This document shows, in pieces, positions 1,793 through 18,643 of a DNA stretch of 59,293 nucleotides. The stretch lies in NCBI GenBank assembly GCA_001899205.1, contig MKVL01000005.1:1-59293 (forward strand), written 5' to 3'. Each line of letters starts with the position of its first letter. The stretch's first letter is position 1. Below the pieces are notes generated by a model that saw only the letters and a list, made by a program, of their open reading frames with translations, did not search any database and was not told the origin of the DNA. The position numbers and the translations under genes were made by a program. The stretch comes from Mesorhizobium sp. 65-26 (GTDB lineage: Bacteria; Pseudomonadota; Alphaproteobacteria; Rhizobiales; Rhizobiaceae).

Positions 1793-3293
<1,501 letters not shown>

Positions 3294-4067
3294 ATGCATC
3301 AGCCGCTTGTCGCCGTATCGACGGATGTACGCCAGTTCGAGAACTACACCTGGCACGCCGCGCCGCGGCAGTATCTCGAGGCCGCCATCGCGGGGGCCGG
3401 CGTGTTTCCTGTCCTGGTGCCCTCCTTCGGTGACCGGCTCGATTTCGACGAACTCCTGTCCGCCGTCGACGGCGTGATGGTGACCGGTTCGAAGTCCAAC
3501 GTGCATCCCTCGCTCTATGGCGGCGACGCCAGCGAAAAGAACGGCCCCTACGATCCCGATCGCGACGCCACCACGCTGCCGCTGATCCGCCGCGCGGTGG
3601 AACGCGGCGTGCCGCTGCTGGCCATCTGCCGCGGCATCCAGGAGATGAACGTCGCGCTCGGCGGCACGCTGGCCACCGAGATCCAGGAGCGGGAGGGCGC
3701 GCTCGACCATCGCGCGCCGGTCAGCGACAACCAGGACGAGCGCTTCAAGATCCACCAGGCGGTGACGATCAAGCCCGGCTCCTGCCTGGCGGGCGTGTTC
3801 GGCGCCGGGGAAATCATGGTCAACTCGGTCCATCGCCAGGCGGTCGATCGCCTCGGCCCGACCCTTCAGCTCGAAGCCGTCGCCGCCGACGGCACCGTCG
3901 AGGCGGTTTCGGTGCGCGACGCGCGTGCGTTTGCCGTCGGCGTCCAGTGGCATCCCGAATACTGGGTCAAGTCGGACAGCATTTCGGCGAAGATCTTCCG
4001 CGCTTTCGGCGATGCCGTGCGACTGCACGCGGCTGCGAAGGCCGGTGCGCGCGCAGCAGCCGAATAG
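3294..4067 (+). CDS. Class I glutamine amidotransferase, gamma-glutamyl-GABA hydrolase-like (PuuD type)
   Basis: The 257-residue protein is a peptidase C26-type class I amidotransferase. The nucleophile is C112 in LLAICRGIQEMN, and the triad is completed by H220 and E222 in GVQWHPEY. Family members of this length hydrolyse gamma-glutamyl-GABA to glutamate and GABA in polyamine breakdown. The ATG at 3294 starts MHQPLVAVSTD, the usual N-terminal strand; the 52 upstream in-frame residues look non-coding. A glutamine-synthetase-like ligase and a class III aminotransferase of the same pathway type lie about 9 kb away (12701-15579), so this gene may be a detached member of that set. Substrate specificity is inferred. 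Confidence 0.85.
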   Translation: MHQPLVAVSTDVRQFENYTWHAAPRQYLEAAIAGAGVFPVLVPSFGDRLDFDELLSAVDGVMVTGSKSNVHPSLYGGDASEKNGPYDPDRDATTLPLIRRAVERGVPLLAICRGIQEMNVALGGTLATEIQEREGALDHRAPVSDNQDERFKIHQAVTIKPGSCLAGVFGAGEIMVNSVHRQAVDRLGPTLQLEAVAADGTVEAVSVRDARAFAVGVQWHPEYWVKSDSISAKIFRAFGDAVRLHAAAKAGARAAAE

Positions 4068-14193: not shown

Positions 14194-15579
14194 ATGACCT
14201 CACCATCGGGCTCGACGCCCACCGAGGCGCAAGCCTTTCTCGACGCCCATCCCGACATCGAGGCCTTCGACATCGTTCTCACCGACGCCAACGGCATCGG
14301 ACGCGGCAAGATCGTGCGCCGGCACGAATTGATGAGCATATTCGAGGGCGGCCGGCACATGCCGATCTCCATCCTCGGGCTCGACATAACCGGCGAGGAT
14401 GTCCACGACACCGGGCTTATCTGGGACACGGGCGACGGCGACCTGCGGGCATGGCCGATCCCCGGCACGCTGGTGCCGCTCCATGGCACCAAGCCGCCGC
14501 GCGGACAGGTGCTGATGTCGATGTATCATCTCGACGGCGAGCCGATGACCTCCGATCCGCGCCTGGCTCTGGCCAGGCAGGTTGAAATCCTGGCGGCGAG
14601 AGGGCTGCATCCGGCGGGCGCGTTCGAACTCGAGTTCTTCCTGCTCGCCAATGAGCGCGACGCCGAGGGCCGGGTACAGCCGGCGCGCGCCGTTCTTGAC
14701 GGACGCCGGTCGGCCAAGACGGAGGTCTATTCCGTCGACCACCTGCACGGCATGGAACCGCTGTTCTCCGACATATACGCGGCCGCGAAGGCGCAAGGCA
14801 TTCCGGCCGAGACGGTCATTTCGGAATACGCCCCCGGCCAGTACGAGCTGACGCTGAACTACCGCAAGGACGTGCTGCGGGCCGCCGACGATCTGGTGAT
14901 GCTGAAGCGGCTGGTGCGGGCGCAGGCGCGCCGTCACGGCGTCACCGCCTGCTTCATGGCCAAGCCGATCGAGAAATACGCCGGCTCGGGCATGCATTTC
15001 CATGTTTCGCTGCAGGACGGCGCCGGCAGGAACGTGTTCACCGAGGCCGCCGGCGAAACATGGTCGCCCAAGCTGCTCGGCGGGCTCGGCGGCCTTCTCC
15101 ACACGATGGCGGAATCGATGCTGGTGTTCGCCCCGCATGCGAATTCCTGGCGGCGATTCGTCTCGCAATCCTATGCCCCGGTGGCGCCGACATGGGGCGT
15201 CAACAACCGCTCCGTGGCACTGCGAGTGCCGGCAGGCGACGCGAAGAACCGCCGCATCGAACACCGGCCGTCCGGCGTCGACGCCAACCCCTACCTGGTG
15301 GCGGCAACCGTGCTGGCCGGTATCGTCAAGGGCCTCGACGAGGGGCTCGACCCCGGCGCCGAGACCACGGGCAACGGCTATGACGCGGCCCCCACGCAGA
15401 CCAATATGCCGGTAGACTGGCGCACCGCCATCGAGGCGGCGAGAGAGTCCAGCTTCCTGAAAGTCGCCCTGGGCGAGGATTTGCATCGCACCTTCGTCGC
15501 CATCAAGCAGGCCGAGTATCTGCGCGTGGCGCGTACCGTCAGCGAACTGGACTACCACCTCTATCTGCACGAGGTCTGA
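14194..15579 (+). CDS. Glutamine synthetase family ligase (gamma-glutamylputrescine synthetase-like)
   Basis: A 461-residue member of the GlnA/PuuA superfamily. It has the ligase beta-grasp N-terminus (DIVLTDANGIGRGK) and the catalytic motifs EYAPGQYELTLNY, KPIEKYAGSGMHFHVSL and NRSVALRVP with RRIEHRPSG. The Tyr-adenylation loop of true GlnA is not seen, and the length fits the amine-ligating group, which joins glutamate to putrescine or another amine using ATP. ATG 14194 follows a rhizobial repeat. Neighbour families (aminotransferase upstream, gamma-glutamyl-GABA hydrolase-like enzyme at 3294) fit amine catabolism. The exact amine is unknown. Confidence 0.87.
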   Translation: MTSPSGSTPTEAQAFLDAHPDIEAFDIVLTDANGIGRGKIVRRHELMSIFEGGRHMPISILGLDITGEDVHDTGLIWDTGDGDLRAWPIPGTLVPLHGTKPPRGQVLMSMYHLDGEPMTSDPRLALARQVEILAARGLHPAGAFELEFFLLANERDAEGRVQPARAVLDGRRSAKTEVYSVDHLHGMEPLFSDIYAAAKAQGIPAETVISEYAPGQYELTLNYRKDVLRAADDLVMLKRLVRAQARRHGVTACFMAKPIEKYAGSGMHFHVSLQDGAGRNVFTEAAGETWSPKLLGGLGGLLHTMAESMLVFAPHANSWRRFVSQSYAPVAPTWGVNNRSVALRVPAGDAKNRRIEHRPSGVDANPYLVAATVLAGIVKGLDEGLDPGAETTGNGYDAAPTQTNMPVDWRTAIEAARESSFLKVALGEDLHRTFVAIKQAEYLRVARTVSELDYHLYLHEV

Positions 15580-15593
15580 TCGCGGATCCGAAG

Positions 15594-15620
15594 GGCGCGG
15601 CGATCACTTTTCGCCGCGCC
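15594..15620. terminator. Terminator-like hairpin after the glutamine synthetase-like gene
   Basis: A perfect 9-bp stem, GGCGCGGCG (15594-15602) with CGCCGCGCC (15612-15620), loop of nine bases. It is not followed by a T run, so termination strength is uncertain, but it separates the amine operon from the LexA-controlled repair operon. Confidence 0.6.
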
Positions 15621-15651
15621 GTGTCAAAAATTATAGCGTTGGCAAGTTTTG

Positions 15652-15666
15652 GAACATATCATGAAC
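15652..15666. promoter_or_regulatory. LexA (SOS) box GAACATATCATGAAC
   Basis: The sequence is a perfect GAAC-N7-GAAC direct repeat, the established LexA-binding motif of Alphaproteobacteria. It lies 2 bases upstream of the radical SAM gene start, where a bound repressor would block transcription. The two repair genes behind it should therefore be induced by DNA damage. Confidence 0.8.
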
Positions 15667-15668
15667 AT

Positions 15669-16904
15669 ATGTCCGTACTTTCCATCCGTGAAAAACTCGC
15701 GATCCTGTCCGACGCCGCGAAATACGACGCCTCCTGCGCATCGTCGGGGTCGATCAAGCGCGATTCGTTGAAGTCGCGCGGCATCGGCTCGACCGAGGGA
15801 TCCGGCATCTGCCACTCCTACGCGCCGGACGGGCGCTGCATTTCGCTGCTCAAGATCCTGCTCACCAATTTCTGCATCTACGACTGCAGCTATTGCATCA
15901 ACCGCTCGTCCTCGAACGTGCGGCGCGCCCGCTTCGGCGTCGACGAGGTGGTGAAGCTGACGATGGATTTCTACCGCCGCAACTACATCGAAGGGCTGTT
16001 CCTGTCGTCGGGCGTCATACGCTCGCCGGACGAGACGATGGGCGAGATGGTCGAGGTGACGCGCCGGCTGCGGCTGGAGGAGAAATTCGGCGGCTACATC
16101 CACCTCAAGACCATTCCGGAAGCCTCCGCCGGGCTGATCGAGATGGCCGGTCTCTATGCCGACCGACTGTCGATCAACGTCGAATTGCCGACCGACGAGG
16201 GCGTGAAGAAGCTGGCGCCGGAAAAGAAGCCGGAGACGATCCGGCTGTCGATGGCGAAGCTGCGGCGTAAGATCGAGGAGAAGGCCGAACCGACATTGCA
16301 GAGCCGCAAGCGCGAGCGCTTTTCCCCGGGCGGGCAGTCGACCCAGATGATCGTGGGCGCCGACAAGACGTCCGATGACGGCATCCTGCGCGCCAGCGCC
16401 CGGCTCTACGGCAGCTACCATCTGCGCCGCGTCTACTATTCGGCCTTCAGCCCGATCCCGGATTCATCGTCCGCCCTGCCCTTGCTGAAGCCACCGCTGA
16501 TGCGCGAGCACCGGCTTTACCAGGCGGATTGGCTGATGCGCTTCTACGGCTTCTCGCAGCCGGAAATCCTGGCCGGCAGCAACGATGGCATGCTCGATCT
16601 CGCCATCGACCCCAAGCTCGCCTGGGCCCTGCGCAACCGCGGCCGCTTCCCCGTCGACGTCAACCGCGCCGAGCGCGAGGCGCTGCTGCGCGTGCCCGGC
16701 CTCGGCACCAAGGTGATCGACAGGATACTGGAGACGCGCCGTTATCGCCGGCTGCGCCTCGAGGATGTCGGCCGGCTCTGTCATTCGGTCGCCAAGGTGC
16801 GGCCTTTCATAACGGCGGAAGGATGGTCGCCGGGCGCGCTTACCGACAAGGCCGGCCTGCGCGAGGTTGTCACCCGCTCCTGCGAGCAGCTTTCGCTGTT
16901 TTGA
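15669..16904 (+). CDS. Putative DNA modification/repair radical SAM protein
   Basis: A 411-residue radical SAM enzyme of the type annotated as putative DNA modification/repair protein (TIGR03916 group, from memory). The 4Fe-4S cluster cysteines are C69, C73 and C76 (CIYDCSYC). The C-terminal part carries a helix-hairpin-helix (VNRAEREALLRVPGLGTKVIDRIL without its last residues), a non-specific DNA-binding element. ATG 15669 gives MSVLSIREKL, the usual N-terminus; a GTG at 15621 would put the LexA box inside the gene and is unlikely. The ribosome site is weak. The gene is followed after 2 bases by the UdgX fusion, its standard partner. The chemical reaction is unknown. Confidence 0.87.
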   Translation: MSVLSIREKLAILSDAAKYDASCASSGSIKRDSLKSRGIGSTEGSGICHSYAPDGRCISLLKILLTNFCIYDCSYCINRSSSNVRRARFGVDEVVKLTMDFYRRNYIEGLFLSSGVIRSPDETMGEMVEVTRRLRLEEKFGGYIHLKTIPEASAGLIEMAGLYADRLSINVELPTDEGVKKLAPEKKPETIRLSMAKLRRKIEEKAEPTLQSRKRERFSPGGQSTQMIVGADKTSDDGILRASARLYGSYHLRRVYYSAFSPIPDSSSALPLLKPPLMREHRLYQADWLMRFYGFSQPEILAGSNDGMLDLAIDPKLAWALRNRGRFPVDVNRAEREALLRVPGLGTKVIDRILETRRYRRLRLEDVGRLCHSVAKVRPFITAEGWSPGALTDKAGLREVVTRSCEQLSLF

Positions 16905-16906
16905 CC

Positions 16907-18376
16907 ATGGCAGGAACCCAGCTCAGCCTCGCGACCCATCTCGTCCGGCTCGAAAGCGAGACCGACTTCGACGGTTGGCGCGATGCGGCGCGCCGCCTGG
17001 CGACGAACGACGTCACGCCGCAGGACGTGGCATGGCGGGTCGAGCCCGATGCGGATCGCCGCGACGGCGATTTGCCTGCTTGTTCGCCCGATTCGCGGCT
17101 TGTCGTGCCGCGCGAATTCATCGAACGCGCCGAAAGGACCATCTGCCATTCCGACCCCGAGCGGTTCGGTTTCCTCTATCGGCTGCTCTGGCGGCTGCGC
17201 GCGGAACCGAAGCTGCTTTCGATCGCTTCCGACCCGGATATCCGCCGGCTGGAAACGATGGAGAAGGCGGTCGGCCGCGACATCCACAAGATGCGCGCCT
17301 TCCTGCGCTTCCGGAAGATCGGCGCGGGCGAGGGCGAACGCTATGTAGCCTGGTTCGAACCCGACCATTTCATCGTCGAGCGCAACGCGGATTTCTTCGT
17401 GCGCCGCTTCACCGGCATGCGCTGGACCATCCTCACGCCGCACGCCTCGGCCGACTGGGACGGCGAGCGGCTGGCGATCGGCCCTGGCGCCGCCAAGCGC
17501 GATGCGCCGGCCGAGGACGACACCGAGACGTTGTGGCAAACCTATTTCGGCAGCATCTTCAACCCGGCGCGCCTCAAGGTGAAGGCGATGCAGAAGGAAA
17601 TGCCGAAGAAATACTGGCGGAACCTTCCGGAGGCCTCGCTCATTCCAGACCTGATAGCAGGAGCGGACAGAGCCACCTCAGCCATGATCGCCCGCATGCC
17701 AACCACGCCGGCACCGCATCACGCCAAGGTCCAGGCCCGGCACTGGCCGACGCCGCGGCCGGCCGAAGCCGATGACATCGAAAGCGTCGACACGATCCCG
17801 GCCCTGCGCGAGATGGCGAAAAGCTGCCATCGCTGCCCGCTCTGGCGCGACGCGACGCAGACCGTATTCGGCGAAGGGCCTGAGAATGCCGAGGTGATCT
17901 TCGTCGGAGAACAGCCCGGCGACCAGGAAGATCTGGCCGGCAAGCCCTTTGTCGGCCCGGCCGGCAAGGTGTTCGACGGCATTCTCGAGCACGCGGAAAT
18001 CGACCGCGCCAAGGTCTATGTGACCAACGCGGTCAAACATTTCAAATTCGAGCCGCGCGGCAAGCGGCGCATCCATTCGAAGCCCAATGCCGGCGAGGTC
18101 CAGGCCTGCCGCTGGTGGCTGGACAAGGAACTCGACCTCGTCAAGCCGAAGCTGGTCGTCGCGCTGGGCGCCACGGCGGCCCTGTCGCTGCTCGGCAAGG
18201 CGGTGCCCATCACCAGGATGCGCGGGCAGGTCATCGAGCGCGACGACGGCCTTCGCGTCTTCCTCACCATCCATCCGTCCTTCATCCTGCGCATCCGCGA
18301 ACAGGAGGACAAGGAGGCGGAGCGGGAGCGGTTTCTCGGGGATATGCGGACGGTGAGGCGGTTGATGGCGGCCTGA
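16907..18376 (+). CDS. udgX: DUF4130-UdgX fusion: uracil-DNA glycosylase family protein
   Basis: A 489-residue two-domain protein. Residues about 1-255 are a DUF4130-type domain (the partner of TIGR03916 radical SAM proteins). Residues about 295-489 are a UdgX-type uracil-DNA glycosylase: GEQPGDQED (334-342), cysteines C307 and C310 for the Fe-S cluster, the UdgX-specific loop KRRIHSKP with H390, and HPSFIL (456-461). In UdgX the loop histidine forms a covalent bond to uracil-excised DNA, which is established for the mycobacterial enzyme. Here the loop has Lys instead of the usual Arg before Pro. ATG 16907 follows the radical SAM stop by 2 bases, so the two are one operon under the LexA box. 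Confidence 0.88.
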   Translation: MAGTQLSLATHLVRLESETDFDGWRDAARRLATNDVTPQDVAWRVEPDADRRDGDLPACSPDSRLVVPREFIERAERTICHSDPERFGFLYRLLWRLRAEPKLLSIASDPDIRRLETMEKAVGRDIHKMRAFLRFRKIGAGEGERYVAWFEPDHFIVERNADFFVRRFTGMRWTILTPHASADWDGERLAIGPGAAKRDAPAEDDTETLWQTYFGSIFNPARLKVKAMQKEMPKKYWRNLPEASLIPDLIAGADRATSAMIARMPTTPAPHHAKVQARHWPTPRPAEADDIESVDTIPALREMAKSCHRCPLWRDATQTVFGEGPENAEVIFVGEQPGDQEDLAGKPFVGPAGKVFDGILEHAEIDRAKVYVTNAVKHFKFEPRGKRRIHSKPNAGEVQACRWWLDKELDLVKPKLVVALGATAALSLLGKAVPITRMRGQVIERDDGLRVFLTIHPSFILRIREQEDKEAERERFLGDMRTVRRLMAA

Positions 18377-18463
18377 TCGTCTCAACGCGTCCCTAACGGA
18401 CCTCGCGCAGAGATACGGACGGATGCCACGGCTTCGGAGATTACCCCGAGACGCCCGTCGCTT

Positions 18464-18643
18464 CGTCATCCACGGGCGGAGCAAGGAGCGAAGCGACGCG
18501 CGCAGACCCGAGGATCCATGCCGTTACTCTAAAGCGTTGCAGCGGTTCGGAATTCTGCTCCGCAGCATACCTCGGCCAAGGTCACGGCATGGATCCTTGG
18601 GTCTTCGCTCCGCTTCGCGTCGCTGCGCCCAAGGATGACGACG
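18464..18643. repeat. Long imperfect inverted repeat in intergenic gap
   Basis: The 281-base gap between the UdgX gene and the convergent glycerate kinase is mostly one repeat unit. Its arms are CGTCATCCACGGGCGGAG near the left end and CCCAAGGATGACG at the right end, with GGATCCATGCCGT (18512 region) pairing with ACGGCATGGATCC (18590 region). Elements of this kind are frequent between convergent genes of rhizobia. No gene is supported inside it. Confidence 0.65.

Follow-up and report, generated by a model that had tools for sequence, protein, structure and literature searches.

Which genes of an operon placed behind a predicted LexA operator belong together, and what might their products do? 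The question is raised by a locus of Mesorhizobium sp. 65-26 (6.84 Mb, 42 contigs) lying in a stretch of 59,293 nt, hereafter the window (contig MKVL01000005.1 positions 1 to 59,293, assembly GCA_001899205.1). On its forward strand, a radical S-adenosylmethionine (SAM) protein of 411 amino acids is encoded at 15669..16904, and a fusion of DUF4130 to UdgX, 489 amino acids long, at 16907..18376. The first belongs to family TIGR03916 (rSAM_link_UDG), which we take to be COG4277; the two parts of the second match the profiles TIGR03915 and TIGR03914, respectively. As described in an earlier note on this DNA, a perfect direct repeat GAAC-N7-GAAC (GAACATATCATGAAC, 15652..15666) ends two bases (AT) before the ATG of the radical SAM gene at 15669, and the fusion begins two bases after that gene (stop 16904, ATG 16907). 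The earlier note saw there an SOS-induced system whose radical SAM enzyme would make or process a DNA lesion, to be capped by UdgX. We propose a different core for the SOS unit, namely radical SAM together with DUF4130; UdgX looks like a detachable module.

SOS regulation of a COG1573-COG4277 operon has been predicted in Bacteroidetes by PMC8565304, which credits Erill 2016 and da Rocha 2008 for earlier reports in Verrucomicrobia and Alphaproteobacteria (papers are cited here for their available portions). LexA control was independently predicted for CAC3343-CAC3344 of Clostridium acetobutylicum (PMC3828012), where, as here, a radical SAM repair protein accompanies a gene of unknown function behind a predicted LexA site, in another phylum. 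Because SOS control of such operons is already in print, the LexA finding adds one more case to a pattern already known. The same kind of gene pair stands under LexA in both the COG1573-COG4277 operon and ours, but the former is described as a uracil-glycosylase base-excision system, whereas here DUF4130 is constant, UdgX optional, and a clamp-type motif is present. DUF4130 is presented as a predicted mutagenesis-related enzyme in PMC3765255, and a gene with this annotation is up-regulated in dried Acinetobacter (PMC13130816). Operon and SOS control are thus known, and the comparisons below point to radical SAM with DUF4130, in place of radical SAM with UdgX, as the unit worth study.

With a probability of about two in three, we read the operon as a LexA-repressed repair unit whose SOS-induced radical enzyme, recruited by the sliding clamp, would act on damaged DNA with UdgX as an accessory. 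DNA damage would inactivate LexA and free the operator at the start codon, and the two proteins would be made. Through its C-terminal QLSLF, the radical SAM protein would attach to the beta clamp at its peptide pocket, a site that DNA polymerases also use, and would in this way be brought to replicating or freshly synthesised DNA. Aided by a helix-hairpin-helix (HhH) region and by DUF4130, it would apply its 5'-deoxyadenosyl radical to a damaged base or sugar. Where a UdgX domain is present in the fusion, it would excise uracil and cap the site via its loop histidine. The comparisons behind this proposal show that the operator is conserved, that a different LexA-type motif takes its place outside Alphaproteobacteria, that radical SAM and DUF4130 co-occur almost perfectly, that UdgX is detachable and that nearly all orthologues have a clamp-type motif; we infer from them that LexA binds the operator, that the tail binds the clamp, that the substrate is DNA and that the enzyme is recruited to replication forks. 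A more specific formulation, to which we give even odds, holds that TIGR03916 proteins are sliding-clamp clients with a second Fe-S cluster on C23/C48/C57 and an obligate DUF4130 partner, performing replication-coupled radical chemistry on DNA damage in the SOS response with UdgX optional. If this is true, clamp-guided repair of this kind would be a class of its own, and a new one.

Gene Content of the Proposed Unit

Co-occurrence was scored in 398 Pseudomonadota genomes using the family cut-offs of TIGR03916, TIGR03915 and TIGR03914, which were exceeded in 84, 87 and 78 genomes, respectively. All radical SAM genomes carry DUF4130 (84/84). UdgX, which the earlier note had taken for the partner, exceeds its cut-off in 63/84 of them and not in the other 21/84; conversely, 15/78 UdgX genomes have no radical SAM gene. 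Two points weigh against our reading: DUF4130 occurs without the radical SAM gene in three genomes, and UdgX counts as absent when none of the candidates scored, at most seven in each genome, exceeds the cut-off, so that an extra copy could be missed.

The operons themselves were compared with tblastn. In 20 of the 21 genomes with no UdgX over the cut-off (18 non-alphaproteobacterial loci, G241 and G322), the operon has DUF4130 and no uracil-DNA glycosylase (UDG) domain; in the remaining one, G523 (locus L171), a weak UDG-like domain of 34% identity is found without the class motifs. Across 80 named alphaproteobacterial orthologous loci (hereafter, named loci), DUF4130 is present in 78/80 and a UDG domain in 74/80. 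The corresponding numbers are 29/29 and 11/29 (L171 included) in the non-alphaproteobacterial set, which comprises all 29 Pseudomonadota genomes over the radical SAM cut-off outside Alphaproteobacteria. Excluded from these and later counts were L094 (the window itself), L118 and L179 (identical in place to L145 and L133, respectively), L110 and L111 (matches to fragments) and L185 (cut by a contig end). Three Rhodobacterales operons (L027, L044, L079) stop after DUF4130; no UdgX exceeds the cut-off in the genomes of L044 and L079, the L079 assembly being just 2.7 Mb, and in one of the three genomes the only UDG is family-4-like. In Spirosoma and Parabacteroides, the radical SAM gene is likewise followed by TIGR03915, with no UDG annotated. 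Since UdgX is detachable and DUF4130 constant, the SOS unit looks like the radical SAM-DUF4130 pair.

In genome G295 (L211, G295:C2:1900-7000, 1496-2795), the UdgX match that follows DUF4130 is broken across frames; this copy is perhaps decaying.

The Radical SAM Protein

The radical SAM protein scores 560.1 bits against TIGR03916 (curated NCBIfam cut-off 343.5) and matches Pfam Radical_SAM PF04055; its closest named relatives, at 94% identity, are from Mesorhizobium. The Fe-S cysteines C69/C73/C76 named in the earlier note are found at these positions in the translation (CX3CX2C, 15873..15896) and are Cys in 176/176 distinct proteins. Three further cysteines, C23, C48 and C57 (residues 23-57, 15735..15839), are each Cys in 175/176. 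As candidate auxiliary ligands they suggest an additional Fe-S cluster, and a second cluster would narrow the possible chemistry.

The HhH region proposed in the earlier note (about residues 325-357, 16641..16739) is plausible, yet its sequence matches, to chains of ComEA and RuvA, are weak (E 0.0087 to 0.39), the best (phmmer, E 0.0087) being to a ComEA-related chain over residues 325-367. The AlphaFold2 model has a mean predicted local distance difference test (pLDDT) score of 84.2. The 50 fold matches listed are enzymes that do not act on DNA, such as HydE, biotin synthase, MqnE and lipoyl synthase, which weighs against our reading; a DNA substrate is therefore proposed from genomic context and the weak HhH.

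Among the alternatives, one in which the enzyme directly reverses pyrimidine lesions in the manner of SplB, spore photoproduct lyase, with DUF4130 modifying or recognising thymine damage, survives best. It is possible, if doubtful, and would be one version of the chemistry within the reading that we prefer. SplB is, as here, a radical SAM protein with a role in DNA repair and an SOS association (PMC3765255, PMC8565304). It nevertheless belongs to another family model than TIGR03916, and the protein studied here has a constant DUF4130 partner and the extra conserved cysteine triad, with the additional cluster that this suggests. No spore photoproduct lyase structure appears among the 50 listed fold matches.

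Two further relatives deserve mention. A Gemmatirosa protein of 35% identity (L187, 2501-3655) is without the N-terminal cysteine triad, keeps CX3CX2C and a QLSLW near its end, and perhaps represents a separate subfamily. On an IMG/VR contig (L184, 3857-5797), the radical SAM orthologue has both a perfect box (GAACGTATATCGAAC) and a QLELFG tail and lies beside phage-like open reading frames (ORFs); the ORF that follows it is hemerythrin-like, not DUF4130 (names assigned by eye). Phage carriage of the family comprises two IMG/VR contigs and ten phage records.

The C-Terminal Tail

The radical SAM protein ends in EQLSLF, of which QLSLF (residues 407-411, 16887..16901) is a predicted beta-sliding-clamp-binding motif. 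Clamp-binding peptides follow the consensus QL[S/D]LF, more generally QxxLF, with QLSLPL as a tight-binding peptide (PMC12309361), and are often C-terminal (PMC4549789). Like clamp-binding replication and repair proteins, the protein carries its motif at the C-terminus, in a tail that is modelled with low confidence: pLDDT falls below 50 at residues 405-411, as expected for an exposed docking peptide. Neither this tail nor the cysteine triad figured in the earlier note, and the tail is new here. No paper was found that combines 'clamp-binding motif' with 'radical SAM', and none of the papers retrieved on QLSLF and the sliding clamp concerns a radical SAM protein, judged by title and start of abstract. 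The tail would indicate where the enzyme acts.

A penta- or hexapeptide motif is found in 174/175 orthologue tails, drawn from five sets (80, 27, 31, 29 and 8 loci) and defined as the last 15 residues, or the last 50 for the 8 plasmid or viral records. The single exception, L090, has QLDLF 28 residues before its end. At alignment position 407, Q is present in 176/176 distinct proteins. As background, the narrow pentapeptide turns up in 0.6% of tails after shuffling and in 4/4457 other windows. The motif codons vary synonymously, with both Gln codons and, at position 2, all six Leu codons in use, and the motif is retained without an adjoining DUF4130 in L021, L023, L024, L025 and L177. Overlap with the start of DUF4130 therefore does not explain the motif, since its codons are mixed and it is kept where DUF4130 is distant or outside the locus. 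Weighing on the other side, the looser definition that yields 174/175 has a higher background (51/4569 windows), and conservation of short linear motifs can have other causes.

One such cause would be service to another partner, for example DUF4130 itself, with which the radical SAM gene is constantly paired. We consider this unlikely: QLSLF fits the published clamp consensus, and its variants, QLALAL among them, are similar to QLSLPL, the hexapeptide in print.

The DUF4130-UdgX Fusion

DUF4130 occupies 16952..17635 (TIGR03915, 209.4 bits for a cut-off of 112.25; PF13566 is also matched). A profile of 13 sequences found no solved relative up to E 10. Residues A27, F132, R134, F135, A148, P152, R167, I175, W210, Y213 and R222 are invariant over an alignment of 13 sequences, few in number and forming no obvious catalytic set.

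The UdgX domain (17639..18355) was correctly recognised in the earlier note. It scores far above the TIGR03914 cut-off and has a UDG fold; the structure matches listed for the fusion cover this domain. It contains GEQPG motif A (334-338), the KRRIH R-loop (386-390) and motif B, HPS, within HPSFILR (456-462), following the definitions of PMC10359453; the KRRIHSKP loop with H390 reads as the note had it. Compared with Mycobacterium smegmatis UdgX, the domain is here fused to DUF4130 and encoded in an operon with a radical SAM gene.

Two alternatives give UdgX a central part. In the first, that of the earlier note, the radical SAM enzyme makes or exposes a lesion which UdgX then caps covalently, both acting in sequence on one substrate. 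It is favoured by the adjacency of the genes in most named loci, where 74/80 have the UDG domain, and by their common box. As a core function it is unsupported and, in our view, improbable: UdgX is below cut-off in 21 of the radical SAM genomes, three Rhodobacterales operons end after DUF4130, one of them in a genome with only a family-4-like UDG, and UdgX persists without radical SAM in 15 genomes, mostly without a box. In the second, the radical SAM enzyme would resolve the UdgX-DNA cross-link and free the DNA of its cap. The genes adjoin, and the routes of resolution put forward in PMC10359453 are RecA-dependent pathways or proteases, which leaves room for a dedicated enzyme. We find this still harder to credit, since radical SAM-DUF4130 pairs are kept without UdgX and UdgX is kept without the radical SAM gene, so that cross-link resolution cannot be the general role.

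Complementarity with family-1 Ung was also considered and proved uninformative, since Ung exceeds its cut-off in just 9/150 genomes of the order.

The LexA-Type Box

Taken by itself, the box proves nothing. The perfect motif occurs once in the window, with 1.40 copies expected in shuffled windows, and 162 times in the whole genome as compared with 117 for the reversed control; this chance level counts against the assignment and shifts the burden of proof to conservation. At the named loci, the repeat was scored on either strand in a region that reaches from 200 bases before the start to 30 bases beyond it. It is present before 77/80 orthologous operons, the place where the earlier note had proposed to look for it (reversed control, 1/80). 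It is also present at 27/27 loci from a search of the order (control 1/27) and at 31/31 distinct alphaproteobacterial loci from a search of the phylum (control 3/32, a duplicate still included). These last two sets are unnamed and may repeat named species; together with 7 genomes shared with the order set, the 31 phylum-search loci cover 38/54 alphaproteobacterial matches, the own genome excepted. Among the 74 named loci with a forward repeat, identity is 0.265 and 0.276 in the flanks, near random, versus 0.548 in the unconstrained 7-base spacer. Shared descent alone is thus insufficient to account for the conservation of the box, because the flanks are near random and the free spacer is not.

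PMC8565304 states that the alphaproteobacterial LexA site is a direct repeat. In the own genome, the one LexA match has GAACACAACTGGAAC 74 nt before its likely ATG, and recA has a one-mismatch copy and no perfect box. None of the 29 non-alphaproteobacterial loci has GAAC-N7-GAAC; instead, 19/29 have CTGT-N8-ACAG, which we take to be the E. coli-type LexA motif, and two rearranged controls are found in 0/29. Of the ten loci lacking a perfect copy, five have one with a single mismatch.

Several observations temper this picture. Three named loci are without a perfect box, each with a one-mismatch copy; L145, L150, L162, L169 and L173 are at least two mismatches from the E. coli-type motif; and a consensus scan found no sigma-70-like promoter at 15540-15760. 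Translation starts 0-4 nt after the box in 72/121 distinct alphaproteobacterial upstream regions, and exactly 2 nt after it in 53. Those 72 regions also have, 17 nt 5' of an A-T-rich hexamer within the box, a weak TTG-like element, an arrangement that would make the transcript nearly leaderless; it is only suggestive, and TTG at this spacing is not shown by the window sequence. An upstream GTG at 15621 could extend the radical SAM ORF, and the box would then be part of the coding sequence (15621-15668); orthologue alignments favour the ATG at 15669.

Conservation in orthologues, together with the predictions of PMC8565304, supports what the earlier note had proposed: very probably, the box is an operator for LexA and the operon is under SOS control. 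That the box is instead a chance match and the operon lies outside the SOS response can be rejected as highly improbable: although 1.4 perfect matches are expected per window, the box stands near the start in 77/80 orthologues for 1/80 with the control, and other classes have a different LexA-type motif at the same gene.

Genomes in which the genes have separated indicate which of them the box accompanies. We gathered 17 UdgX genes without an intact DUF4130 (L191-L198, L202-L210), 13 from genomes without radical SAM and four that are second copies. Of these, 1/17 (L191) has a perfect LexA-type box upstream; in two others the perfect copy is over 1.5 kb distant. Copies with one mismatch are found within 500 bases in L195 and L204 (alphaproteobacterial type) and in L203 (E. 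coli type), which is about the chance rate. DUF4130, with or without UdgX, located apart from the radical SAM gene has a perfect box nearby in L112, L113, L199, L200 and L201; the separate fusion gene of L114 has none, a point that speaks against the association. Small DUF4130 pieces are kept in L192 and L193, with no box.

The boxed exception, L191, belongs to the Mesorhizobium relative G136, in which no radical SAM gene exceeds the cut-off. Its box (GAACATACCATGAAC) ends six bases before a DUF4130 remnant (residues 209-245) that leads into UdgX, and a single loss seems to have removed the radical SAM gene together with most of DUF4130. On the evidence of these separated genes, the predicted regulation follows the radical SAM-DUF4130 pair.

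The G136 locus lies at G136:C1:5486000-5490500, reverse strand, about 2829-3692, and its DUF4130 remnant holds an in-frame stop. In L199, L200 and L201, all of one genus and with no radical SAM gene over cut-off, DUF4130 (fused to UdgX in two of the three) has its own box, GTTCATGATATGTTC or GTTCATGGTATGTTC.

Downstream of the Operon

The intergenic stretch 18452-18641, 3' of the operon, contains four inverted-repeat pairs, the longest of 28 nt with 89% complementarity (18500-18527/18581-18608), and looks like a palindromic intergenic repeat.

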